Part shown: positions 3,492 through 38,233 of the stretch, piece after piece
Layout: every line of letters begins with the position of its first letter
Position numbering within the stretch: position 1 is the stretch's first letter
IMG/VR virus record: IMGVR_UViG_3300032313_001231
Coordinates: 1 to 41,421 of that record
Reading direction: 5' to 3' (one strand)
DNA length: 41,421 bases
DNA from: a virus
Translations under genes and position numbers: made by a program
Notes under the pieces: model-generated
The model's input: the letters and a program-made list of their open reading frames with translations, nothing else
Databases searched by the model: none
What the model was told of the DNA's origin: nothing

Positions 3492-4043
3492 TCACCTGTC
3501 CGCATTTGGCGGTTTTTCAATAGATGGAACAGTTTTTGTAATTCCTGCATCTGCTTCAACTGGAACCCATGCCCGAGCGTAAGAATGCTCTGATATTTTT
3601 CTGCTTTTTATAAGAGAACCATCAAGCAGCAATTGGACCTCGTCCTCTTTCATTTGCAGTAGAGAACCCAAATCTGATATTTCATACTTTGTAGAATGAA
3701 TAAGATTTCTAATAATATTAGACGTTGGTTTTGCTAGAAGGTTTCCACGAGACCTATTTAGGCGAAGGTGAAGCATCTGTGCTTCCATGCTGTCGCATTC
3801 CATTTCTATCACTGGACACTTGTCTCCAATTATTGGAATTAAGTGTTTTTGTTTTTGAGCCAAGAGAAGCCTTTCGTTTCCATCAATCACAACATTTGTT
3901 GACTTTTGAACAACAATAGGGACAATAAAACCGAAGTCTCTCAGTGAAGCAGAAAGCGCAAGCAGGTCTGGACGAAGAATGTACGTCGCCTTAAACGGCG
4001 CAATCTTTAAATCCTTGAAATCAATCATTTTAATCTGATGCAT
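3492..4043 (-). CDS. ParB-like nuclease-fold protein (IbrB-like), copy 1
   Basis: This encodes 183 residues. The N-terminal ParB/sulfiredoxin-fold domain (residues 1-100) shows the usual order: ID-x-x-D/L-K-I-A-P, 'SLRDFGFIVPIVV', then the core motif DGNER (54-58) followed by LLLAQKQK. This replaces the GxHRxxA of chromosomal ParB. A helical segment follows (residues 105-150, ISDLGSLLQMKEDEVQLLLDG), which could be an HTH. The start at 4043 has CAGGAG seven bases upstream and overlaps the end of the PAPS-reductase-family gene by 14 bases. In IbrA/IbrB pairs the ParB-like partner lies next to the PP-loop partner, as here. Its biochemical role is not established. Confidence 0.72.
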   Translation of the reverse strand: MHQIKMIDFKDLKIAPFKATYILRPDLLALSASLRDFGFIVPIVVQKSTNVVIDGNERLLLAQKQKHLIPIIGDKCPVIEMECDSMEAQMLHLRLNRSRGNLLAKPTSNIIRNLIHSTKYEISDLGSLLQMKEDEVQLLLDGSLIKSRKISEHSYARAWVPVEADAGITKTVPSIEKPPNADR

Positions 4044-5172
4044 TGTCTAACTCCTGTTGTGCTGCTTTTTGTCTAATTGAATGAGATTTTGTTTTTGGAC
4101 CAACGGGCGAGGCAGCCATGTTTGTTATTTCGCCAGTAAGAAGATTTCTAATTAACCAGTTCATTGGATAAGAATACGGGTCCCTAGCGTGTTTTTTTCT
4201 AAAATCAGCGACATAGGCCATGCCTCTCCGTTTGTCATGTTCGTCTGAAGTGTTCTCTTCTATGCATCGCCTGGCTCCCTCAAAACCGTCTACCGCATAA
4301 CTCTCAATATATTTTTCTATATCAAATTCAGGCCACCACCGTCGCTGAGCGTCTATTTCTGGCCAGATATTCCAGAGGGTGTCGTAGAACTCTGGCTCAG
4401 TTGCAACCAGGTCGCCAATCCTTCGGATGGCTACGGCGTGAAGCGGAATACCAACTCTCGTATTTGAACCAGTCATTGATGCAAGGTCGTAGTACTCGCA
4501 GTACTCGGCACCATGCTCTTCTGATATGAATTTCATTACGTCATCTATTTGCCAGTCATAAATAACTTTGGCAAATTTTAAAGGTATGGAGCGCTTCATT
4601 TTGTACGGAGTGACAATGTAGTTCTCATGAACTTTTTGAACCAGCGACCTGTACCTGACCATTGACTCGTTGGCTCGTACTCCTGTAATAAAAGCAACGC
4701 TTCCAGTTTTTCCCTGCATGGTGTAGTAATCAATTCCTTCTGGAAGAGATTCGTCCATCGGTAAACCAAAATGAGAAGCATTGATTGCCCATGACGGCAT
4801 TTCTCTAACAAGTTTGCCTTCTGCTGCTCTCTGGGAATCCCAGGAAAGAACATTCTGCCTAATCCCTAAAACCCAAATCTCTTCTGGAAGCGGCAGGCAG
4901 TACCACTCCATGTCAACCCAGTCATAGTTTCTAACGCGTTCAACGTAGTTTAAGGTTGTTGGGCTAACCATTTCTTCGTCACGGAAAATAACCTTTACCG
5001 GACCCAAGCCTCGCTCTTCGTGAATCTCTTTTGCCAAATACAAAACAGCCGTAGAGTCTTTTCCTCCAGAAAACTGAATGCACACAGTGTCAAAGGTGTC
5101 GTAGACGTGACGGATACGCTGACGAGCAGCATCAACGCAGGATATGTTGAGAAACATCCTCTGCTTAGTCAT
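4030..5172 (-). CDS. PP-loop PAPS-reductase-family protein (IbrA/DUF3440-like)
   Basis: This encodes 380 residues if started at the ATG at 5172, chosen because it overlaps the stop of the preceding 56-residue gene as TAATG; a longer in-frame reading only runs through that small gene. The PP-loop SGGKDS is at residues 35-40, preceded by 'DTVCIQF' and followed by a helix 'TAVLYLAKEI'. This is the ATP-binding site of adenylyl-transferring N-type hydrolases and PAPS reductases. The C-terminal third (RRGMAYVADFRKKHARDPYS, then WLIRNLLTGE) matches the DUF3440-type extension of IbrA. The ECG(I/L)H cysteine motif of true CysH is absent, so sulfate reduction is unlikely. A nucleic-acid or nucleotide modification role is possible but unproven. 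Confidence 0.8.
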   Translation of the reverse strand: MTKQRMFLNISCVDAARQRIRHVYDTFDTVCIQFSGGKDSTAVLYLAKEIHEERGLGPVKVIFRDEEMVSPTTLNYVERVRNYDWVDMEWYCLPLPEEIWVLGIRQNVLSWDSQRAAEGKLVREMPSWAINASHFGLPMDESLPEGIDYYTMQGKTGSVAFITGVRANESMVRYRSLVQKVHENYIVTPYKMKRSIPLKFAKVIYDWQIDDVMKFISEEHGAEYCEYYDLASMTGSNTRVGIPLHAVAIRRIGDLVATEPEFYDTLWNIWPEIDAQRRWWPEFDIEKYIESYAVDGFEGARRCIEENTSDEHDKRRGMAYVADFRKKHARDPYSYPMNWLIRNLLTGEITNMAASPVGPKTKSHSIRQKAAQQELDNASD

Positions 5173-5342
5173 TAGTATTTTGCAATCTGCGACAGACGAG
5201 ATACTTCTGCTTTTAGTTCGTCTACTTGACGGAGAAGGGAATCCCGCTCTTCCGTAACCTTCAGGAGTTGCTGCCAATGAGAAGGAAATCCAGTGATGGT
5301 ATGCAGTCTCTCAATGTTGTCTCGATATTGTTCCATGTCCAT
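5172..5342 (-). CDS. 56-residue coiled-coil protein inside the IbrAB-like cassette
   Basis: Reading the minus strand from the ATG at 5342 gives a 56-residue protein beginning MDMEQYRDNIERLHTITGF and ending LKAEVSRLSQIAKY. GGAGG lies eight bases before the ATG, and the stop overlaps the next start as TAATG. The C-terminal half (LLKVTEERDSLLRQVDELKA) has heptad-like leucine spacing suggesting a short coiled coil. It is not recognised. Its placement between a ParB-like gene and the PP-loop gene, with tight coupling on one side and a two-base gap on the other, makes it a likely partner or adaptor of that cassette. Confidence 0.65.
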   Translation of the reverse strand: MDMEQYRDNIERLHTITGFPSHWQQLLKVTEERDSLLRQVDELKAEVSRLSQIAKY

Positions 5343-5344
5343 TT

Positions 5345-6130
5345 TTAAACCTCCGTATGCATGTCAATAAAGTCAATTAACTTTTCTGCTGTTGTTGTTC
5401 CCGAAATACCCGGGTCATTGCGTAGATACCTAACAAAGTCATACCATCTACGCTGCTGGTCTGGGTTATCAAAAACAATTGTGTACTGAACTACCGCCTG
5501 TGGAGCGGAGCCAGGAGAAACTATGGTGCTACCAGAAATAGCAACCTTGTTGTGGTCCATGTCTTCATTAGCAAATATTTTTCTCTCACCATCTTCGGAT
5601 TCTTCAATGCGAATATTTGTTGGCGCTGGAGGCGCTGGAGAAGGATTATTAGTGATTACTGGAGTGAAGTAGCCGTCAGCAATAGGTGATATTTCTTCTG
5701 ACTTGAGTTGACTTTCTTCTATTGCTGCCAACTCAAACTCGTCCCATCCCAAGCCCTCAAATAGTTCAGGGTATTCGTCCCACAGGTCTATGACCAAGTC
5801 GTTGAGCATGGCAGTGTCCGTATGACCAAGTTCCATCGTTCGATTGTCCGCAAGAGCAAAAGCAACAGCCCTCTCTTCATCAACGTCCATCTGAACTGCT
5901 GCTATTTTTGTCCATCCAAGATTCATCGCTGCCTTGAGTTGATGGTTTCCGGCAATTACAAGATACGTTCCGTCTTTTTCTGGTCTGACGACTATTGGTT
6001 TTATTTGACCAAATTCTTTATACGAGGACATAATCGCATCAACATTGCCTTTACGGGGGTTGTTCTGAAGCGGAACAAGTTTCTCTATAGGCAAGCAAAG
6101 AGGTAGGAGGTCTTTGGATATGTTTGTCAT
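5345..6130 (-). CDS. ParB-like nuclease-fold protein, copy 2
   Basis: This encodes 261 residues. The N-terminal ParB domain is canonical in layout: IEKLVPLQNNPRKG (15-28), IMSSYKEFGQIKPIVV (33-48), AGNHQLKAAMNLGW (60-73), then a DxDEERAVAFALADN-type helix (82-97) and LWDEYPELFEGLGWDEFE, a segment common in phage ParB-like proteins that act with methylases or nucleases. Residues 150-200 form a Pro-rich linker and the C-terminal 50 residues make a small alpha/beta domain (VQYTIVFDNPDQQRRWYDFV). It is more typical of the family than copy 1 at 3492-4043. Start and stop couple to neighbours (TAATG at 6130). Confidence 0.78.
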   Translation of the reverse strand: MTNISKDLLPLCLPIEKLVPLQNNPRKGNVDAIMSSYKEFGQIKPIVVRPEKDGTYLVIAGNHQLKAAMNLGWTKIAAVQMDVDEERAVAFALADNRTMELGHTDTAMLNDLVIDLWDEYPELFEGLGWDEFELAAIEESQLKSEEISPIADGYFTPVITNNPSPAPPAPTNIRIEESEDGERKIFANEDMDHNKVAISGSTIVSPGSAPQAVVQYTIVFDNPDQQRRWYDFVRYLRNDPGISGTTTAEKLIDFIDMHTEV

Positions 6131-6477
6131 TAGTTATTTACCTGAATACGAACGTTGGCGTTAAGTGTTCTCAATGCATCTATTGAGGTCCGTAACGATA
6201 GCAGTTTTTCCCTCTTTGATTTGAGAAGCGCTTCGGCAATCTTAAAATCAAAGTTTTCATCAGCCAATTTATAATCGGCCCATGCTTCGCGTTCCTTGAT
6301 TGAGCCTTTTGCTGAAAGGTATTCTTTGGCCCAATTAGATTTATACAAGGCTTCTTTTTTCGCCAAATCTCCCGCCAGGGATTCAAAGGCTTCTGTTTCT
6401 TGTTCCAGCATCTCAAGGAGTCGCATTAACTCGTGTTCAATATCTACTTGACTAATAGGGCTATTTCGCGAAATCAT
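6130..6477 (-). CDS. Small coiled-coil protein of unknown function
   Basis: This encodes 115 residues, almost all helical and charged: ELMRLLEMLEQETEAFESL, then KKEALYKSNWAKEYLSAKGS and a C-terminal RTSIDALRTLNANVRIQ. The pattern suits a two-helix coiled coil. Similar small helical proteins occur in phage recombination/replication operons, but no family was recognised. GGAG precedes the ATG, which lies 17 bases inside the end of the RuvC-like gene. The stop overlaps the ParB-like gene start. Confidence 0.65.
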   Translation of the reverse strand: MISRNSPISQVDIEHELMRLLEMLEQETEAFESLAGDLAKKEALYKSNWAKEYLSAKGSIKEREAWADYKLADENFDFKIAEALLKSKREKLLSLRTSIDALRTLNANVRIQVNN

Positions 6478-13481: not shown

Positions 13482-13576
13482 TTTATGTATTCTAAATAAA
13501 TAAACTGTTTTAAAACTTGCAATGACATCACCCTTTGTTGGTTTATTATTCTCTTGTAACACTTTTGGAGACAACA
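13482..13576 (+). other. Leader between portal and protease-led giant gene
   Basis: This 95-base AT-rich gap ends with TTTTGGAGACAACAATG, a good ribosome site for the ATG at 13577. A TATTAT hexamer is present but without a convincing -35, and neither TACAAT nor ATACTTACA occurs. No terminator-like hairpin was seen, so portal and protease genes may be co-transcribed. Confidence 0.4.
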
Positions 13577-16500
13577 ATGACTAGTAGTAATATTGAGTTT
13601 AAAGCGATGCCTGGTCAGGTTAACGTTGATGAAGCACAGGGTATTGTTGAATGCTTTGTTGCTGGTATTGGAAACAAAGACTCCGTAGGGGACGTTCTAA
13701 TAGCAGGCGCATTTACAAAAAGCCTCACAAGACGCAAACCCCGAGTTGTTTGGGGGCACAACTGGAATGACCCAATCGGTAAAGTTCTTGAGATTTACGA
13801 AGTTGCTCCTGGAGACAGAAGACTTCCAGTAAAAATGCTCAATGCCGGTATTGGTGGGCTTTACGCAAGAGTTCAGTTCAACCTGAACTCAGAAAAGGGT
13901 AAAGAAGCATTCGCCAATATTGCATTCTTCGGACAAGAGCAGGAATGGTCAATCGGTTACAAAACTCTTGACGCAATCTTTGACCCCAACCTTCAGGCAA
14001 ACATTCTTAAAGAAGTAGAACTTTACGAAGTGTCTCCAGTTCTTCATGGTGCCAATCAACTGACTGGAACAATATCCGTCAAGTCCGACGACGCTGTTGC
14101 TTTGGCTGAATCGGAAAAAGGCTGGGGCATGATGGGCCCTCATCACATGATGGGACAAATGCCACAAAGGCCGACCATGATTATGGTTCAGGACAACGAT
14201 GACGAGTACGAATCAGAAAAACCTATTTTTGCAGAAGGGTTGTCTCAATCAATCGATGGAGACAAAAAGCAAAGATTAGAAAAGGAAATAATGGAGAGAA
14301 CTGGTTCTCCCGTTCGCTTGATGAGCGCTACTGAAAGTACTGCAATATTTCAAAGAATGATGCCTAATGGCGCTCCTATGAATTTCAGAATCGGGTACCA
14401 CACCCCAGACAATTATTCAACATTCATGTTTGGAAAACCTGAACTTATCAAAAATACAAATAATTATTCATCTCCAAACAATAGACCTTCTGGTTCAAGA
14501 GTAATTACTCCTTCCCAGATGCCATCAATGCAAATACAGGTCAAGCCTGGATATGAACAGGATTATGAAAAATCCGACATCGCAAGCCAACTGTTGGATT
14601 TAGAAGAAATCTTAATGAGTGAAGTTGATGAAAAAGTCGGCAAAACAATAAATAAAAGAAATCTTTCCAAGTTAAAACAAATTATTGAAAATCTTCAAGA
14701 AGTGATTTCTTCAGCAGAAAAAGAAGACCTAGAAACAAAAGGTTATTTAATTCCGGTTGAGTTGCACGAAGCGTTTCACGCCAAATCACTACTTGACCCA
14801 ATCCTTGATTATCACAGAGTTGAATCGCAAGTTACGGAAAATGGAATCCTTATAACCTCCGGCGTAACAAAAGACTTGATAGACGCTATTGATAACGCAC
14901 AAAAGGGAATCGGTCGAAGTATCGGCGGCAAACCGGGAAAAGGAAGGGCAGCCGGTAGGGCTGCATTCTCAAGGTTTGACCCGAAAGCCTGGGATGGCGA
15001 TGGAGACGGGTTGGTCCAAGAAGGCACCCCATTTCAGCGCCCTGCGATTCCAGGAGTAAACGATAGGTCCACGCGAGGTCGCGTTAACGCTCAAGCAGCA
15101 ACACAAGCATTTACTCAGCAGGGTGGATTTGCTTCCACGAGCGGCGGTAGCAATGATTTTAATCGTCAAATTAAACCAGAGCAACGCGTTATTGATTCAG
15201 CAGTAAAAATGCTGGAAAAGAATCGTGAATACATTGCGGACAGGATGATGCCCGGAAGAAATAGGGAAATCCTTGATGAAAACTGGGTTGACGAAACAAT
15301 CAAAAATTTAAAAAAGGGTGAGATATCTCACTTAGACGCAATGAACATAATGAATCTTGTTGCAGATATTGTAAGTAGAAAAATCAACGAAGACCCATCT
15401 CTTAGAGATGCAACTAGTGGAGAAGTGTTTCAATATCAAAAATTAAGCAAGCGTCTTCGTAGAGCGATGGTCGCGGGCGTATCTCCAGAAGACATGGACA
15501 ACATTCGTCGCGGACAGGGAATAACCCGTAGTCAAGTTTCTAAACCAAGAGCATTTGGTTCCACTTCCAAGCCTTCAAGACCATTAAGTTCTTCCACTAT
15601 CCGCAATATTGATATTCGTGGGATTGACGAAGCCATAGAAGAATTGGCCGCTAAAGACATAGGACTATCTCTTTCAAGATACAGACAATTAATAGACGAA
15701 GGTCGTCTTCCAGAACGTTACGATAAAGCGTTTACGGATAGAGTTCAAGTTCTCAATAGCATCTTTCAGGGTTTAAATAGTGAAAAACTAAACAAAAGTC
15801 CTGGAACTGTTCTTTCTGGAATCAGAAAGCAACTAGTTGATGCCCTTTCTTCCGAAAGAAACGATTCTAGTTTTATTCAAGGGTTTAACGATAGAAAAGA
15901 ATTACAAAACTTTATAGATGGAATTGAAAATATTGTTGAATTAGCACTTGTTGACTATTCCCGTGCGGGTGACGAAGAGTCAGAATTAGCAGATGATTTA
16001 ATGGACGACTTTAGAGAATCTTTGAAAAAAATCTCCGCACAATCAAAAAAACTTTTTGATGCAAGAAGTCGTTCTTTAGATGGAAGAATGCCGAAAGACG
16101 CTAAAAAAACATCAGAATCAGAAAAAGAAAGATTATTTGACTTGCTCAAAAATCCTCTCAACATGGAAGAACTTGCTGATTACCTAGACAGCACAGATGG
16201 TGTTATTCCAACAAATCCATTCCTTGACAGAATAAGGAAGGGAAACATAAGTGACGAAGATTTGGTAGAACTAAATAGCCTGCTTGAAGATGCACTAGAA
16301 CAAATTATTACCCTTGACCCAAGCCTTGACCCAGAAAAATTAGCAAAAGAATTTTCTGATGCAATTAGAGAAGGTGCAAAAAATGATGAATCAGGGGTAA
16401 TCCAGCGCATTGCAAAAGAACTAGGAGACGATGGCGTCAGTCAAGACCTGGTTGAATATCTCAAGTACGGTAGAGAAGGTTCTCCATTCCTTCCAGATAG

Positions 16501-19500
16501 GGGAAAAAAAGAAAGAGAAATGCTTCGTAGTTTTGCTTCCACGTCTGGGGGCAATAATGACAATATTCCGGTACCTGGAACAGGAAGAACGACGCGAGAT
16601 TTTGACACAAGTGGTGCTGTTCCAATGCCAGACGAGCCAGACGAAGAGATAATGGGGCGTCTAGAGGAAGTAGCGGCAGATAGGGACTCAAGAACCGCCA
16701 AAAGGCGTGGCGAAGGAACAATGCTCGGAAGAAGTGGTCAAATAAGAAGAGACGAACAAGGAAACGTTGACCCAACAGAAGCAAGAGAAGCAAGAGCGGC
16801 GTTCGACCAAAATATTTTTAACAAGTTAAGAGAACTTGGTTTTGATGACGAACAAATTGAACTACTAACTGGAGTTCCGGACGGGGGCAGAATACCTGAA
16901 GGAGGAAAACCTGCTTCATATTTTGCTTCACAAAGCAGGGCTTCAGGAAAACTTTCAGACAACACTGCATTAAAAAGAATAAATAGAGCAATAAGCGAAA
17001 ACGGAAACAATGTTCTTGATAGTGACATTTTAAAAGATTTTCTTTCAGGAATGTCGGCCGAAGAAATAAATGAAAAATTTAGTCTTGGAAATCCGCGCGA
17101 TGCTACTAATGCTGCAAACAGAGAAATAAATAGAATAAAAGCAAATATTGCTTCTAAGGCAAATTCGGACATGGATTTGTTAATTTATTTAGAATCTGGT
17201 TTCAGTGTCAAAGACACGGCAGAACTCTTCAACATTTCCCCCCGAGAAGTACGCAAAAGACAAAAACAACTCAAGTTAGAACTTGAAAAAAATATTGAAG
17301 ACGACGACCTTCTTTATTTGAGAAGTGGTTTAACCCTTGAACAAACAGGAAAAGTTTTGGGTATCGAACCCAAGGAGATTCGTCGCAGAGAACAAATCGC
17401 TCTTAAGGCTACCCGACCATCAAAAGGAAATAAAATTGGAAGGAAAAAACAAACAAGAGACGGAACACTTACTCCTCAAAAGAACCTTTCATTCACTCTG
17501 GATGACGACCTAGTTGGCTTGCTTAATGAAGAAGTCGGCATGCTTCTTGACAACACCAAGAATCGTGAACCTTTGCTTTTAGTGAAGAAAATTCTTGAAG
17601 AATCCAAGGGTGGAAAATTCGAAGTAACCCCAGAGCAGTTTGACAACATTACTGCTGCAATTGAAGATGCATTTGAAAATGGAGTTGTTACGTCTGATTT
17701 GTATGAAGTACTAAGTCAAGCATCGGACTCTCTTGATGGGAAGTTTGATATTAGAGAAATCTCAAATCCACCAAAACCCATAAAAGGATTTGCCTCGTCT
17801 AGAAGACGTGTTAACAATGGTGCCCCAACAGACATGACCGAACTACAGCAAAGACAATACGTTGCGTGGGCTCGTCAGCAAAGAGGTCTTCGTGTTGCTC
17901 AGGAAATAATTCAAGAACACGACAGGAACAATGGACAAATGCCGCCCGCTAGATGGAAGGCGCTTCGTACCATGTATTCAAACATGGCATCACAAGGACC
18001 TCGTCGCTCTCCTGGATTTGCATCAAGAGACAGAACTAGCAAACCAACTGCCGGAATCAGAGATGTCGGAACCTCTAATACAGGACCACTTCCTTACATT
18101 TATCAAACTAGTGGTTGGAAAAAGGTCGGTGGCGCTGGCGGTCTTAATGAGGCAAGCCAAATGCAGGACCCAAAGACTGGCAAAAAGTTTTATGTTAAGC
18201 ACACGCGCGCTGGAGAAGAATTCCGTGGGGAATCAGAGATTCTTACAAGCAAGTTGTATCAACTTCTTGGTGTTGGAACAATCAATTATGAGCGTGGTGT
18301 TCATAACGGAAAACTTCAACGAGTAAGCGAATGGGACCCAAGCATAAATAGCAGAGTCAACCACGGACAAATGTCACGAGACCCCAAGTTTAGGGCGTCT
18401 GTTCAAGGAAGCCTTATTGCTAATGCATGGCTTGCAAACTGGGACGGAACGGGCAATATGTCAAATATTGTTGAGCGTGACGGTGAGGCTGTTATGGCAG
18501 ACTCCGGTGGTGGTCTTCTTTTCCGCGCCCAAAGGTACAGCGGCATGAAAGGTCCAGTCTCAGGTACTGATTCATTTGGTGCCAAAGTTGAAGAAGTTTT
18601 TAACCTAATTAATGGAAAAACAAGAAGTGGACAAAATGTTCAGGTGGATGTTTCTAATGCCTATTACAAAGGTATTGAACCATCCGAGGTTGCAAGACAA
18701 GTTAAAGAACTTTCTCAAGTAACAGACGAAGACATTAAAAAACTTGTATCTCAAACAATTAGTAATAAGGCAGACGGCGACAGACTTGCTGAAATATTAA
18801 TAGCAAGAAGAGACTGGATAGTAGACCACTGGTCAACAGGACAACTTGTAGAAAAGCCTCAGGACACATCTAGAAGCGATGCCTCTGGTTCCAGGGTTCG
18901 TCCGTTTGCTTCTTCGTCGGCTGGGTCCAGAAGAGCATTTGCCTCTACGAGCGTAGACGGTCCTGGAGATGATGGTCCTGGTTCAGGAAGAGTCATTAGG
19001 GCTAGAGGTCTTGGTGAAGCAGTACCTGGCGGTGGAATTGAAGGCAGAGAAAGAGCATCCGAGACAGGAATATCTCGTGGTGACAATACAGGACTGGAAA
19101 CAAGATTTGCTGGTAAATCATTTGATGAAACAAAGCCTGACAACTGGGATGAATTAACTCTTGACGAAAAGTGGAATTGGGCGTTAACTGAAGGCAATCC
19201 AGAAAACAATCAAACAGGAGAAAGAATGTCTCCGGTTGCTTACAAAAAGTTGCTTACCGACCTGGCAGAAGAAGCGGACAAGGAAGACCTGGCAAGCATG
19301 TCTCCAGCGCAGCGTCGTGAAGAAAGAAGAATTAGAAAAGAACAAGACGCAAAAATTGAAGAAATGGGTGACCCTGAAAGCAAGGAAGAAGTAAAACGCA
19401 GAATCGAGCAAAGCAAGCCTAAAGAACCTAAAAAACCAGCAGTCACAAAAATTAAAAAATCCGAAAATGCTCAAAAAGCAAAAGAGGAAAGAATAAAACG

Positions 19501-20428
19501 GCTTGATGCTTTTATAGATTTTATAAATGATAAAAAATCAGAAATAGAAACAGACGAGTACGAAGTTGATGACCATCGCGAACTGTGGGACAAGGTAAGT
19601 ACCGCCCTGCAAGAAGGGGGTTACGATTTTACAGTAAAGAGTCTAGAGAACGCCATAGTCGTCCTAGATGACTATGTTGGAAGTTTTGAAGATGAACAAT
19701 TGGCACCTGGAGAAAAGAAAAACCTTACAGCCGCAAAGAAAATGTTAAGAACTCTTATTTCCGCCAAGACCGCATATCAGTCAGATGAATGGATTAACGG
19801 AGGAAAAGGCTCCGGAAGCAAACCCACTGCTTTTGCTTCTTCAAGTCGTCAACTACCGGGCATGCCGCCTATTTCCAAAGAGGCTATAGAAGCCAGAAAA
19901 CAAATGGAAAAGTTAATATCGGATACAAAAAAAGATATTAAAAAAATGCAGGGGACAGGCAAGCCTGGTTCCAGAAGTTTTGCTTCCACTTCCTCTGGTG
20001 GCAAGACAATGATTACCGACGAAGCAACGTTCTTTCAGGATATTGAGACATCTATTGTCAAAGAAATTAGAAGAGCAAGAAAAGCCCAAGACGCAAAGGC
20101 TGTCAAGGGTCTTACTAAACTTGAAGAAATAATCAGGCGAGACGAGGCTTCCAAAACTGGAAGCAGAAGAACGAACGTTGGAAGCATTTACTTCACAATG
20201 GAAGAGGCAGACCAGATTCTTGACGGCCTAATGTTTGCTCTTGATTCTCAAATTGAAGACGGTGGAGAAAAAAGAATTGCTTGGTATTCAAAATTAATAG
20301 AACTCATTGCCAAATCTGCTAAATCTACATTTATTGACAAGACAACAAGCGAAATAGGTAAAACCACCAGGACTGGAACCAATTCCAGAGGTCAAACAAG
20401 GACAATCAAAACAATACCGGATGCATAA
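13577..20428 (+). CDS. Giant multidomain protein with N-terminal prohead protease
   Basis: This encodes 2283 residues; the ATG at 13577 was chosen for its GGAG site and because the family start follows. Residues 1-160 are an HK97-type (S78) prohead protease: DSVGDVLIAGAF, His61 in WGHNWNDPIG, Ser125 in EWSIGY, and YEVSPVLHGAN. Further domains, by position: a DPKAWDGDGDG calcium-loop module near 466; three HTH-like repeats at about 1145-1277; a HipA/PI3K-like kinase domain at about 1515-1700 (Lys1541, Asp1623 in NWDGTGN, Asp1642 in ADSGGG); and charged helical regions elsewhere. FAS(T/S)S or a near variant recurs at 518, 660, 986, 1116, 1405, 1481, 1777, 1788, 2086 and 2135, mostly in linkers. 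Typical prohead proteases have about 200 residues, so this is a protease-effector fusion, likely packaged in the head. Confidence 0.85.
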   Translation: MTSSNIEFKAMPGQVNVDEAQGIVECFVAGIGNKDSVGDVLIAGAFTKSLTRRKPRVVWGHNWNDPIGKVLEIYEVAPGDRRLPVKMLNAGIGGLYARVQFNLNSEKGKEAFANIAFFGQEQEWSIGYKTLDAIFDPNLQANILKEVELYEVSPVLHGANQLTGTISVKSDDAVALAESEKGWGMMGPHHMMGQMPQRPTMIMVQDNDDEYESEKPIFAEGLSQSIDGDKKQRLEKEIMERTGSPVRLMSATESTAIFQRMMPNGAPMNFRIGYHTPDNYSTFMFGKPELIKNTNNYSSPNNRPSGSRVITPSQMPSMQIQVKPGYEQDYEKSDIASQLLDLEEILMSEVDEKVGKTINKRNLSKLKQIIENLQEVISSAEKEDLETKGYLIPVELHEAFHAKSLLDPILDYHRVESQVTENGILITSGVTKDLIDAIDNAQKGIGRSIGGKPGKGRAAGRAAFSRFDPKAWDGDGDGLVQEGTPFQRPAIPGVNDRSTRGRVNAQAATQAFTQQGGFASTSGGSNDFNRQIKPEQRVIDSAVKMLEKNREYIADRMMPGRNREILDENWVDETIKNLKKGEISHLDAMNIMNLVADIVSRKINEDPSLRDATSGEVFQYQKLSKRLRRAMVAGVSPEDMDNIRRGQGITRSQVSKPRAFGSTSKPSRPLSSSTIRNIDIRGIDEAIEELAAKDIGLSLSRYRQLIDEGRLPERYDKAFTDRVQVLNSIFQGLNSEKLNKSPGTVLSGIRKQLVDALSSERNDSSFIQGFNDRKELQNFIDGIENIVELALVDYSRAGDEESELADDLMDDFRESLKKISAQSKKLFDARSRSLDGRMPKDAKKTSESEKERLFDLLKNPLNMEELADYLDSTDGVIPTNPFLDRIRKGNISDEDLVELNSLLEDALEQIITLDPSLDPEKLAKEFSDAIREGAKNDESGVIQRIAKELGDDGVSQDLVEYLKYGREGSPFLPDRGKKEREMLRSFASTSGGNNDNIPVPGTGRTTRDFDTSGAVPMPDEPDEEIMGRLEEVAADRDSRTAKRRGEGTMLGRSGQIRRDEQGNVDPTEAREARAAFDQNIFNKLRELGFDDEQIELLTGVPDGGRIPEGGKPASYFASQSRASGKLSDNTALKRINRAISENGNNVLDSDILKDFLSGMSAEEINEKFSLGNPRDATNAANREINRIKANIASKANSDMDLLIYLESGFSVKDTAELFNISPREVRKRQKQLKLELEKNIEDDDLLYLRSGLTLEQTGKVLGIEPKEIRRREQIALKATRPSKGNKIGRKKQTRDGTLTPQKNLSFTLDDDLVGLLNEEVGMLLDNTKNREPLLLVKKILEESKGGKFEVTPEQFDNITAAIEDAFENGVVTSDLYEVLSQASDSLDGKFDIREISNPPKPIKGFASSRRRVNNGAPTDMTELQQRQYVAWARQQRGLRVAQEIIQEHDRNNGQMPPARWKALRTMYSNMASQGPRRSPGFASRDRTSKPTAGIRDVGTSNTGPLPYIYQTSGWKKVGGAGGLNEASQMQDPKTGKKFYVKHTRAGEEFRGESEILTSKLYQLLGVGTINYERGVHNGKLQRVSEWDPSINSRVNHGQMSRDPKFRASVQGSLIANAWLANWDGTGNMSNIVERDGEAVMADSGGGLLFRAQRYSGMKGPVSGTDSFGAKVEEVFNLINGKTRSGQNVQVDVSNAYYKGIEPSEVARQVKELSQVTDEDIKKLVSQTISNKADGDRLAEILIARRDWIVDHWSTGQLVEKPQDTSRSDASGSRVRPFASSSAGSRRAFASTSVDGPGDDGPGSGRVIRARGLGEAVPGGGIEGRERASETGISRGDNTGLETRFAGKSFDETKPDNWDELTLDEKWNWALTEGNPENNQTGERMSPVAYKKLLTDLAEEADKEDLASMSPAQRREERRIRKEQDAKIEEMGDPESKEEVKRRIEQSKPKEPKKPAVTKIKKSENAQKAKEERIKRLDAFIDFINDKKSEIETDEYEVDDHRELWDKVSTALQEGGYDFTVKSLENAIVVLDDYVGSFEDEQLAPGEKKNLTAAKKMLRTLISAKTAYQSDEWINGGKGSGSKPTAFASSSRQLPGMPPISKEAIEARKQMEKLISDTKKDIKKMQGTGKPGSRSFASTSSGGKTMITDEATFFQDIETSIVKEIRRARKAQDAKAVKGLTKLEEIIRRDEASKTGSRRTNVGSIYFTMEEADQILDGLMFALDSQIEDGGEKRIAWYSKLIELIAKSAKSTFIDKTTSEIGKTTRTGTNSRGQTRTIKTIPDA
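14972..15073 (+). repeat. DGDGDG calcium-loop module, copy 1
   Basis: The protein reads RFDPKAWDGDGDG followed by VQEGTPFQRPAIPGVNDR. The D-x-D-x-D-G loop is like an EF-hand or dockerin site. The same module occurs at 32069-32167 and, more diverged, at 35594-35680. Confidence 0.8.
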
Positions 20429-34855: not shown

Positions 34856-37800
34856 GTGAATAATGAATTTATTTACAAACTGCTTGCAATAAGACAAGCA
34901 TCGAACATGGGTTGTAATGGCGCACACCAAAACACACACGGTGAATGGATTCCATGTTCTTCCATTAAGCAATATCTTTCAATCAATCAGCCCCAATTGG
35001 TTAAATCAAGAACAACAATTCTTGAAATGGAACGCAGGTCTTCTCTTAGAAAGAAAAAAGGGAAGAAAAGAAGAAAAGGGTGGGAAAAACTTCGTGAACG
35101 TGGTGTCGGTGGAATAGATAGCACTCTTGGGGTCGGACTTCATTCTTGGGATGGAAGACAGGGCAGAAATGTCAATTTGATACGGGGTGGAATAATACCG
35201 CCACGAACAAACGGTGCCATGTCTACAAAAACATTAGAAGAAAAAGGCGAACAATACTCTCCTCGTGACAACGACACTGACGTATTTATTGATATTGAAT
35301 CGGCCAGAAGAAGAGCCCGTCAAATTGGATGCATCGGGGTTAGCAGAAGAACGTCAAAATCCGGCAAAGCAGTTTGGATGCCATGCACCAACATGTCCGA
35401 TTACAACAACCTTACTGGCATGTCTGCTTTAGGAAAATTAAATCAAGAAAAACGAACACAATCAATAGTGAGAACTATATTGTCGAACGAACTAAAGAAA
35501 AGAAAAAAGAGTCTTGTAGAAGAGATACTCGGCAAAGCAATAGGACCAAAAATATCTGGGATTTCAAGATTTGCAGCAAGAAGTATCACTCAAAGATTTG
35601 ACCCCAAAGCAGAGGACGGGGATGGCGACGGAACCCTGCAGGATGGAACTACGTTCGAAAGACCCAATGTTCCTAATGTTCCAAAACTTGAACCCGCAAG
35701 AGAAACACCAGTTTCTAAATCGACCATATCTGCTGTTGGTAAATGGTTTAAATCAACCAGTAGTTCGGATAGGGAAAAGTTAACTGGAGGTTCAATAGAA
35801 GATTTCGGTGCAAGAGCAAGAAGCACAAGAGGTTTTGCCTCTTCTTCAAAACCTCCTCAAAAAGAATCTGTAAAAATTGAAGGTGTAGAAAACCCAGATG
35901 CCTCAGACACGAATCCATTCAGAAATTTGGGTGGCAGAAAAATGGGAGAAATAATTAGAGGTCTCGTTAAGCCGTCCAATAAAAACAAAAAAAAGAGAAC
36001 CACTTATCTGATTGGAGGAACAACCGGAGGTGGTAAATCAACAGTTCTTGACGACCACCTCGTTGTTCAGGGGCTTGTTCCATCAAGAGAAGAATCTGCT
36101 CATGTTGACCCAGATTTTATAAAACTTGGATTGCCCGGATACAACGATGGTGCAGGAGCGTCGATGGTTCACGATGAGTCACTCAGGTCTGCTCAACGGA
36201 CCATGGATGACGCAAGACAGGAAGGAATGGACGTTGTTGCTACTGGTGCTGGCTCAACAAGGCAGCGAGCGATGATTGCTCAGGCTAGACAAAACGGCGA
36301 CAGGGTTGTTGCCCACTGGGTGCATATTCCGGCAGAAGAAGCATCAAGAAGAATGAAGGAAAGACAGAAGGAAACTGGAAGAACAATACCTGACCAATCA
36401 AGTCATTTTGCCAACTCCATACCAAGAATGGTTTCTGACGCAACAGCCAATGGCGAGGTTGACGAGTTTTATATTTGGGATAACAATGTAGAAAAAGGTA
36501 AACCTCCAAGATTGATTGCATCTTTTAAAGATGGAAAATTAGAAATATTGGACCAAGAAAAACTTGACGAGTTTATGAAAGGTAACAAACTTTCTCCAAA
36601 AGCAAGAGAAGGAGATGTTCTTTCTGATGGAGAACTGGAAGCATTAAAAGAATCAGACGAGTTCTTGGGTACTACTTCTAGTTCAAAACCTAAAAAGGGC
36701 GGAAGGTATACACCGCCCAAAAATGCACCACAAAATAAACCATCTTCTCCGCTACCTGGCGCTCCAGGAGCAGTTCCGCCACCCGGTATTCCAGGAGCAG
36801 TTCCGCCACCCGGTATTCCAGGAGCAGTAGGAACTACGAATCAAGGCGCTATCGGTGCACGTAGTCCTTTTGGTGAAGACCCAGGTATGGGAATCAATAC
36901 GTCCCTATCTCAGATACAGGACATAGATAAAATAATAGAAGACCGTGTACTTGCTTTTGTTGCAAAACTAACTGACAGACTTACAAAAAAACGAGACGGT
37001 TCTCCTAAAGACCCACTCGGTTACGTAATAAAAAAACTTGCAAAAACGTTGCAAGGAAGTTCATACGCACGAGAAGAATCAATTGGTGGAAGAGAAGGCC
37101 CAGCGGCACCAATTTCAATATCACGCTTTTCACTAAAGGGACAACTTGACACACCAGAAGGTATTGCAAAAGTAGTAAAAAATTTTGTTCCAATTAGAAA
37201 AAATTCGGAAACGGATGATGATTTTGCTTCAAGACTTTTTGAAACAATACCTATTTTAAGGTATACGTTAATTTCCGGTAGACAAGATGGAGAAAGTCAG
37301 TTAAAAGATTTACTACAAAGAATTGGATATGACCCAGTTGAACAAAAAAATCTAAGAAAAATCTTGCAAGAAGAACTGACAAATAACAAAGCATTTAGGG
37401 AACTTGTTGAAGAATTTGGTCTTCCAATGTTTATTGGCGGCAACGGTATGCCCGACGGTCAACCAATGGGGGGCACTTCCGGTTACCATACTGCAGGTGC
37501 CGGTTTGGTTGTAATGAGTAAAGACCATGTTAAGAAGGGTAGTCACGAATCGATAGGGTCAACCCTTGAAAAACCAAAATTTGACACTCTTCAAGAAACG
37601 CTTAGACACGAGTGGTTTCATTATCTAGATGCAGTATTTATGGCTTCTGACTCAAAAACACTTGACGTTAGAAAACAGGTATACCTTGCAGGACTAACGG
37701 AACTAGCAAAAGACCCAGAGTCTGTTGTTAGAAAAATTATTGGCGGTAAAGATTTGCCTAAGTATTTAGAAGAAAGAATATTAGGCTCCCTAAGTCGGGA

Positions 37801-38233
37801 GATTAGAAAGGCCTATCCTGGGTGGAGTGAAGACAAGGTAAGAGTAGAAGCAATGGAATTTTTCTCTAAAGAATTGAAAGAACGAAGAGCGGAGTTTGTA
37901 GCACAATTAAATGACACCATAGACGGCATTTTGTTTGACGAAGACATGATTGATGAAATACTCAGGGACAGGGGTGGGGTCTTTGATGCAATTGCAGGAA
38001 AATATTCTGAGTATGCCAGGTTTGGTCTTCATGAACTCATAGCAGAGGTTGGAAGAATGATTACATCAACTCCGGCAGAAAGAGCAAATCCAAACAATAA
38101 TATTGGAAAAATAGATGATTCCACCGTTGATTTACTGGAATCACTATTCCCATCTATCGGTAGGTCTCAGTGGTTAAATATTATTAGAATTTCTTACCCT
38201 GGAATCCAGATAAAAGTTTTGAGGAACAAATGA
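34856..38233 (+). CDS. 1125-aa multidomain protein: zeta-toxin-like kinase plus zincin
   Basis: The start is GTG at 34856, directly after an in-frame stop, with a weak ribosome site. Two paired-cysteine motifs (GCNGAHQNTHGEWIPCSS and GCIGVSRRTSKSGKAVWMPC) occur in the first 180 residues, followed by the calcium-loop module at about 247-275 and one FASSS linker at 327. A zeta-toxin-like kinase spans about 380-555: Walker A G387-GTTGGGKST396, AHVDPDFIKLGLPGY, and HWVHIPAEEASRRMKER. Zeta toxins phosphorylate UDP-amino sugars or nucleotides. After a PG-rich linker comes a zincin-like metallopeptidase with H918-E-W-F-H922 and a later LHELIAEVGR, a possible third-ligand helix. The order suggests an injected multi-effector protein. 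Confidence 0.8.
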   Translation: MNNEFIYKLLAIRQASNMGCNGAHQNTHGEWIPCSSIKQYLSINQPQLVKSRTTILEMERRSSLRKKKGKKRRKGWEKLRERGVGGIDSTLGVGLHSWDGRQGRNVNLIRGGIIPPRTNGAMSTKTLEEKGEQYSPRDNDTDVFIDIESARRRARQIGCIGVSRRTSKSGKAVWMPCTNMSDYNNLTGMSALGKLNQEKRTQSIVRTILSNELKKRKKSLVEEILGKAIGPKISGISRFAARSITQRFDPKAEDGDGDGTLQDGTTFERPNVPNVPKLEPARETPVSKSTISAVGKWFKSTSSSDREKLTGGSIEDFGARARSTRGFASSSKPPQKESVKIEGVENPDASDTNPFRNLGGRKMGEIIRGLVKPSNKNKKKRTTYLIGGTTGGGKSTVLDDHLVVQGLVPSREESAHVDPDFIKLGLPGYNDGAGASMVHDESLRSAQRTMDDARQEGMDVVATGAGSTRQRAMIAQARQNGDRVVAHWVHIPAEEASRRMKERQKETGRTIPDQSSHFANSIPRMVSDATANGEVDEFYIWDNNVEKGKPPRLIASFKDGKLEILDQEKLDEFMKGNKLSPKAREGDVLSDGELEALKESDEFLGTTSSSKPKKGGRYTPPKNAPQNKPSSPLPGAPGAVPPPGIPGAVPPPGIPGAVGTTNQGAIGARSPFGEDPGMGINTSLSQIQDIDKIIEDRVLAFVAKLTDRLTKKRDGSPKDPLGYVIKKLAKTLQGSSYAREESIGGREGPAAPISISRFSLKGQLDTPEGIAKVVKNFVPIRKNSETDDDFASRLFETIPILRYTLISGRQDGESQLKDLLQRIGYDPVEQKNLRKILQEELTNNKAFRELVEEFGLPMFIGGNGMPDGQPMGGTSGYHTAGAGLVVMSKDHVKKGSHESIGSTLEKPKFDTLQETLRHEWFHYLDAVFMASDSKTLDVRKQVYLAGLTELAKDPESVVRKIIGGKDLPKYLEERILGSLSREIRKAYPGWSEDKVRVEAMEFFSKELKERRAEFVAQLNDTIDGILFDEDMIDEILRDRGGVFDAIAGKYSEYARFGLHELIAEVGRMITSTPAERANPNNNIGKIDDSTVDLLESLFPSIGRSQWLNIIRISYPGIQIKVLRNK
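35594..35680 (+). repeat. DGDGDG calcium-loop module, copy 3 (diverged)
   Basis: The protein reads RFDPKAEDGDGDG then LQDGTTFERPNVPNV. The acidic loop and the E/D-G-T-x-F-x-RP signature are kept, while several flanking residues differ from copies 1 and 2. Confidence 0.75.
36767..36828 (+). repeat. 27-bp exact tandem repeat (collagen-like GAVPPPGIP)
   Basis: Two identical 27-base units (36767-36793 and 36794-36820) and eight bases of a third encode GAVPPPGIP. It forms the linker between the zeta-like and zincin parts of the 1125-aa protein. The exact DNA identity indicates recent slippage or duplication. Confidence 0.9.

Follow-up and report, generated by a model that had tools for sequence, protein, structure and literature searches.

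A PP-loop protein (PP) placed between two different ParB-type proteins (ParB1 and ParB2) forms a cassette that recurs in phages, and the pattern of this cassette would suit a core that carries out a modification and takes exchangeable caps. It was analysed in the window, that is, the complete stretch of 41,421 bases of an IMG/VR virus record, from a virus of bacteria. We hold with about even confidence that the phage-specific trio serves a nucleic-acid modification pathway with predicted chemistry, DNA being the most likely target. Counted in support are the order of the trio (88 of 109 viral loci among the matches listed), the exclusivity of the cap enzymes, a C-terminal domain of ParB1 (beside PP in 9/9 loci with the domain and 0/70 without it), the fold neighbours and the gene neighbourhood. 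Counted against it are the missing caps in the window and its clade and the PP genes without flanking ParB (13/109 among the matches listed).

Gene organization in the window

The genes on the minus strand are closely packed in the order HNH, RuvC, g6130, ParB1, S56, PP and ParB2, and the last four are head-to-tail open reading frames. The initial annotation had placed four tightly coupled genes between 3492 and 6130, and both the genes and their coupling were recovered. ParB1 (5345–6130; 261 aa) consists of a ParB-type NTPase fold at residues ~10–142 and a cassette-specific C-terminal domain. S56 (5172–5342) encodes 56 residues, and its C-terminal half is coiled-coil-like. PP (4030–5172; 380 aa) is a PP-loop ATP pyrophosphatase-like protein of the phrog_2302 type. 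ParB2 (3492–4043; 183 aa), a diverged member of the IbrB/YbdM family, has a ParB NTPase domain and a helical central region. The g6130/ParB1 and S56/PP junctions are both TAATG, the spacing between ParB1 and S56 is 2 nt, and PP and ParB2 overlap by 14 nt. The start of PP was assigned to the ATG at 5172; the TTG at 5277 in the ORF list was dropped, since homologues begin at the equivalent of this ATG.

The cassette adjoins recombination and terminase genes, with RuvC and annealing genes near, and the cassettes of Arthrobacter and Mycobacterium phages also adjoin terminase. The g6130 gene was considered as a general fourth part and rejected: it is confined to the window clade and missing from loci L083–L190. 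Searches of the window for structured RNA and for tRNA genes gave zero Rfam matches and no tRNA gene, respectively.

S56 has a GGAGG Shine-Dalgarno sequence (5354–5350, minus strand). Its dN and dS values against locus L013 were 0.18 and 0.96, and dN/dS was ~0.2 against L013 and L014. This small gene, as had been proposed, is a real protein gene under purifying selection. Its further proposal as a conserved part of the complex did not survive a survey of the slot between ParB1 and PP in 57 loci with both genes. Coiled-coil proteins of the S56 type (56–60 aa) were found in ~10 close relatives, with the common tail ELRAEVSRLSQIAKY and differing N-termini; the tail pattern (D/E)ELxAEVSRLSQIAKY is confined to these ~10 nearest relatives. 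In the other loci the slot holds unrelated small ORFs or larger cargo, or is empty. This means that the slot is swappable and S56 is accessory, not core. The stop codon of S56 overlaps the start codon of PP, so that translation of PP is probably coupled to that of this accessory gene. It should be mentioned that the slot cargo in a few loci includes a histone-deacetylase-like amidohydrolase, or seems from its sequence to do so (PF00850, 5e-26 in locus L068).

The PP-loop protein and its ParB partners

PP matched PF01507 (E=5e-9) and, over residues 1–370, phrog_2302 (E=8.5e-75). The PP-loop motif FSGGKDS is at residues 34–40, and its SGGKDS part (residues 35–40; 5053–5070, minus strand) is invariant in 49/49 aligned members, together with D65, E67, R166, E169, S170, R173, and R239. 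No ECG motif occurs anywhere in the sequence, in agreement with the earlier claim of an SGGKDS protein lacking the CysH-type ECGIH. Pfam and database names would make PP a CysH-like PAPS reductase that boosts sulfur assimilation. This is very improbable: the ECGIH catalytic cysteine is missing, two ParB genes are linked, and the cap partners are fixed. The missing motif and the gene context largely refute a role in sulfur metabolism, despite the PAPS-reductase-type fold.

The structural model of PP (pLDDT 87.5) was closest to the PAPS domain of FAD synthase (VIA Z 18.1) and to CysD (15.9). CysH, APS, and PAPS reductases followed with VIA Z values of 14–15 over the N-terminal ~250 residues, and TilS, TtuA, and NcsA were also among the matches. 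The single PP sequence gave no match in the PDB, and the PP profile gave weak matches. The modelled fold is thus nearest to adenylylating enzymes, and adenylylation is the predicted activity. PP differs from FAD synthase and CysD in its low identity (~18%), in an additional C-terminal helical region, and in its partners. The single near-invariant cysteine column of PP, C225 (45/49; Asn in four cellular IbrA rows), sits in a YCxxYD motif common to PP and FAD synthase. This location favours adenylyl transfer over sulfur transfer, without proving it.

The cysteine also bears on phosphorothioation of phage DNA, in which PP would be DndC- or SspD-like and the ParB proteins would replace DndB and DndE. 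PP is weakly similar to BrxP (2e-7) and DndC (5e-7), DndC has served in print as the comparison for a PAPS-reductase-like protein of a phage (PMC8092301), and DndB is a ParB-superfamily protein (PMC10853773). The cassette resembles DndBCDE, SspBCD, and type-4 BREX in pairing a PAPS-reductase-like PP-loop protein with a nucleotide-binding partner; it differs in the lack of a cysteine pair and of visible DndD-, DndE-, or SspC-type partners, in its different ParB proteins, and in its methyltransferase or GNAT caps. C225 alone does not make a sulfur-carrier pair, although DndC was not among the aligned rows. Homologues of DndA, DndD, DndE, SspB, and SspC were not seen among the scanned neighbours, in a record that may be incomplete. 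The structural matches listed for PP did not include DndC, SspD, or BrxP, but nothing is excluded by this. Known phosphorothioation systems, to our knowledge, do not include methylase or acetylase caps. Taken with these points, phosphorothioation is quite unlikely.

The two ParB proteins belong to separate families, as the initial annotation had supposed: their own-family HMM scores were 396 bits for ParB1 and 262 bits for ParB2, whereas the cross scores were 37 and 17. ParB1 matched PF02195 at 4.9e-13; ParB2 reached 0.026 in Pfam and matched phrog_2159 at 1.3e-21. The AlphaFold2 model of ParB1 (pLDDT 81) was superposed on the CTP-analogue-bound ParB of M. xanthus with a VIA Z of 14.2 and an rmsd of 2.5 over 129 aligned residues; further matches were sulfiredoxin (Z 9.8) and the serine kinase SerK (Z 8.9). 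As modelled, the N-terminal domain of ParB1 is a standard ParB nucleotide-binding fold.

ParB-domain relatives of ParB1 were present in 541 phage records. What distinguishes the cassette protein is its C-terminal domain (~residues 213–258; 5357–5494, minus strand), with the signature Y-x-x-x-FD-x(3)-QQ-x-x-W-x-x-F. Among 44 members F220 is invariant, and Y216, D221, Q225, Q226, W229, and F232 are conserved in at least 90%. In a scan seeded with ParB1, all 9 testable loci that kept this domain had it beside PP, compared with 0 of 70 loci in which the domain was missing; a tenth locus with the domain ends at the contig edge and was left out of the count. No other single feature marks the cassette as well, and the domain is likely to be a docking element.

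Similarity of the ParB1 N-terminal domain to a CTP-binding ParB could also suggest that ParB1 and ParB2 are segregation clamps for partition or nucleoid organization, with PP as a bystander. There is hardly any likelihood of this, however, since the ParB DNA-binding domain had no match in the window, ParB1 carries the PP-linked C-terminal domain, and PP is better conserved than the ParB proteins (67–86% identity within the window clade).

The ParB2 family profile matched solved ParB/Noc structures at 1e-8, and its alignment with Noc spans the NTPase domain and extends into the central region. HTH_ParB (PF17762) had no match in the window genome; still, the ParB2 profile aligns with the central domain of Noc, and DNA binding by ParB2 is a plausible prediction from sequence. 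S33, G38, P42, D54, G55, R58, P77, N96, R97, E135, A158, and W159 are invariant in phage ParB2 and cellular IbrB. The C-terminal tail IExPPNxDR (3495–3521, minus strand), conserved in the ParB2 alignment of the window clade, is possibly a docking peptide.

A precedent for the requirement of two ParB_N proteins is found in the GmrS/GmrSD doublet type IV restriction system, in which two different ParB_N-domain proteins are jointly required (PMC12373910). This system differs from the cassette in that it has no PP-loop protein, one of its ParB_N proteins carries an HNH nuclease, and it serves defence and is not a phage module.

Conservation of the trio and relation to IbrA/IbrB

The search seeded with PP gave at least 80 viral loci, and a search with diverse phage PP sequences added another 80, including one repeat; the counts were made on loci flanked by 1.5 kb or more. 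Besides the 88 loci with ParB1, PP, and ParB2 in order, the 109 viral loci among the matches listed comprised 8 with PP–ParB2 and 13 with PP without flanking ParB. Seven of the PP-alone records were searched in full length for ParB2. Two of them, of 106 and 138 kb, have a strong ParB2 elsewhere (E ~1e-43 and 1e-45); of the other five, two are fragments with a weak ParB-like match only, and three have none. The trio is therefore kept in related phages, where conservation of the cassette had been proposed as a check. Arthrobacter, Mycobacterium, Rhizobium, and Bacillus phages carry it in the same frame, with piecemeal annotation. The same genes in the same order are seen in Salgado (Arthrobacter; gp5–gp8), Heathcliff (Mycobacterium; gp1–gp5), and 055SW001 (Bacillus; gp78–gp83), from which the window clade differs by its diverged ParB2, the swappable small-gene slot, and the lack of a recognised cap. 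Salgado and 055SW001 have the methyltransferase described below as their cap gene, whereas none was detected in Heathcliff. Such phages are propagated on laboratory strains (M. smegmatis, B. subtilis, and Arthrobacter).

The cassette had been described as IbrA/IbrB-like. The relationship itself stands: ParB2 can be aligned with YbdM and with cellular IbrB, which share its motifs DGxxR, NR, and SxAW, and in both IbrA/IbrB and E. coli YbdN/YbdM a PP-loop protein of the PAPS-reductase type is followed by an IbrB-type ParB. The label IbrA is approximate. DUF3440 (PF11922) matches YbdN at 2.6e-32, whereas the window PP and three other phage PP proteins do not match it, and phage PP is split from cellular IbrA by a 100/100 branch in a tree of which the rooting was not established. 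The missing domain and the separate clade rule out that PP is IbrA proper.

Phage cassettes add ParB1 upstream and often a methyltransferase or GNAT cap. Among 66 cellular IbrA/IbrB loci, 63 have PP–ParB2 without ParB1 and one has ParB1, whereas ParB1 is common in viral loci; in other words, phages have added ParB1 to a pair of the IbrAB type. A cellular contig of Kribbella (L088) has a close PP together with ParB1. GNAT genes adjoin some of the cellular IbrAB pairs (L122, L138, L139, L143, L146, L149, L152, and L164). IbrAB is already known, and the phage trio is a variant of it.

IbrA and IbrB are named as co-activators of prophage gene expression, and phage homologues are annotated with this name. 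The phage proteins might likewise be transcription co-activators: PP and the ParB proteins would bind DNA and switch phage genes, with nucleotide binding as a signal. ParB2, which resembles ParB/Noc past the NTPase domain, is consistent with this. It leaves unexplained, however, why the PP-loop catalytic motif is intact in 49/49 members and why the methyltransferase and GNAT partners are exclusive, and the missing HTH_ParB match in the window genome also argues against it. Such a role seems unlikely, though somewhat less so than phosphorothioation.

Candidate cap enzymes and the proposed pathway

A small SAM methyltransferase (phrog_11826) was found within or adjoining the cassette of several named phages. 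A methyltransferase-seeded search found 18 phage records; every one of them carries the cassette, and the gene lies within or next to it. In a methyltransferase-seeded scan of 2.9 million viral contigs of IMG/VR, 14/14 loci had ParB1–PP–ParB2. Elsewhere, a GNAT acetyltransferase takes the place of the methyltransferase in the cassette (for example, L173 and L174), and a GNAT-seeded scan also gave the trio in 14/14 loci. These scans reach homologues sharing conserved stretches with cassette members, and their seeds were cassette members, so that the exclusivity (14/14) concerns the nearest homologues only. Comparison of the GNAT profile with Mu Mom, of which it might have been a relative, gave no match.

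Among 27 dereplicated cassettes from outside the window clade, 11 had the methyltransferase, 13 had the GNAT, none had both, and 3 had neither. On the PP tree ~7 switches between the two enzymes are needed, and at least 4 are forced by well-supported branches. Both enzymes are thus tied to one core, mutually exclusive, and repeatedly exchanged, as two alternatives for the final step of a single pathway would be. This gives indirect support to the modification role suggested at the outset, the reaction itself being predicted.

Searches of the window and its clade with the methyltransferase and GNAT HMMs gave no match, and a cap gene in the window was therefore rejected. The product of the window cassette would accordingly be uncapped, or its last step would fall to a host enzyme or to one that was not recognised.

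In the proposed pathway, PP would split ATP and adenylylate the target, like FAD synthase, CysD, and other PP-loop enzymes with the modelled fold. ParB1 and ParB2, as fixed partners, would probably load or position PP on the nucleic acid under nucleotide control, and the activated target would gain a substituent. In related phages, the SAM methyltransferase or the GNAT acetyltransferase would finish the product. Both kinds of cap usually modify nucleophilic groups, so that an amine or a similar group is probably exposed on the core product. The target would most likely be phage DNA, and the purpose would be escape from host nucleases. With less than even confidence, we also consider an undescribed phage nucleic-acid hypermodification of this kind: adenylylation by PP with two ParB NTPases would expose a nucleophile that is capped by methylation or acetylation, and phages would swap the caps time and again, an arms race against the nucleases of the host being the probable cause.

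DNA is the most likely target by gene neighbourhood, which is not proof; the same genetics would also suit tRNA, protein, or a small molecule. The cassette might act on host or phage tRNA or rRNA, on protein, or on a nucleotide-derived small molecule, for takeover or counter-defence. Many PP-loop enzymes work on tRNA, TilS, TtuA, and NcsA being among the fold matches of PP; the methyltransferase family weakly matches a phage tRNA-methyltransferase family (5e-4); and the substrates of FAD synthase and CysD are small molecules. The ParB-type NTPase partners and the terminase, RuvC, and annealing genes nearby point instead to DNA, and a target other than DNA is rather unlikely, although it is the likeliest of the alternatives.

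IbrA/IbrB, the phage annotations, and the analogy of a phage PAPS-reductase-like protein with DndC are already known. In the literature searched, no chemical product is reported for a PP-loop protein with ParB in phages, and there is no description of a trio that includes ParB1, of caps bound to the cassette, or of their exclusivity; an earlier overview of DNA-modification gene clusters in phages lay outside this search and may hold a prior prediction. IbrA/IbrB-type pairs are widely annotated as "PAPS reductase" and "ParB-like nuclease", and the literature found assigns them no reaction. If the trio is a core with swappable caps, a large set of phage genes that are at present assigned to sulfur metabolism or partition would get new labels. 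If the proposed modification is true, it might represent a new DNA chemistry bearing on the escape of phages from host nucleases.

The slot between ParB1 and PP

The small gene between those of the first ParB-fold protein (ParB1) and the PP-loop protein (PP) is modular. At window 5172-5342 and in the related loci L010-L019 and L023, small genes with differing N-termini have one C-terminal coiled-coil tail in common. In L019, this tail is fused to the N-terminus of another slot family.

In the relative L068, a histone-deacetylase-like amidohydrolase (4587-5468; PF00850, 5e-26) lies between ParB1 and PP. This slot amidohydrolase is possibly a third type of tailoring enzyme. The same kind of protein, by sequence likeness, is found in the slots of L063, L065, and L066.

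Neighbours and linkage of the cassette

ParB1 is directly downstream of g6130 (window 6130-6477, minus strand; 115 aa, phrog_1389), and a TAATG overlap joins the two genes. The identity of g6130 within the window clade is 69-92%, an unusually high conservation; cassette-bearing phages outside this clade lack it.

In the large phage records G002 (L207) and G004 (L233), the second ParB-fold gene (ParB2) is tens of kilobases from PP and on the opposite strand. In phage cassettes at 17 diverse loci, among them L173 (3768-4169), a small HNH-like protein that weakly matches the phrog_2340 endonuclease adjoins ParB2 or the GNAT partner. Cellular IbrA/IbrB pairs are preceded by an SNF2-like helicase gene in L096 (4748-6004), in L091, and in roughly 14 further loci from cells; a GNAT gene is also present in some loci (L138, L146).

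Other ORFs of the window

The 2297-residue ORF (13535-20428, plus strand) has an N-terminal prohead-protease domain (PF04586, 9e-11), beyond which about 2100 residues follow; its product resembles a polyvalent head-module protein. The 1125-residue ORF (34856-38233, plus strand), with a capsid gene downstream, has a zeta-toxin kinase domain (PF06414, 2.8e-13). Its product is probably another polyvalent protein, and might be injected.
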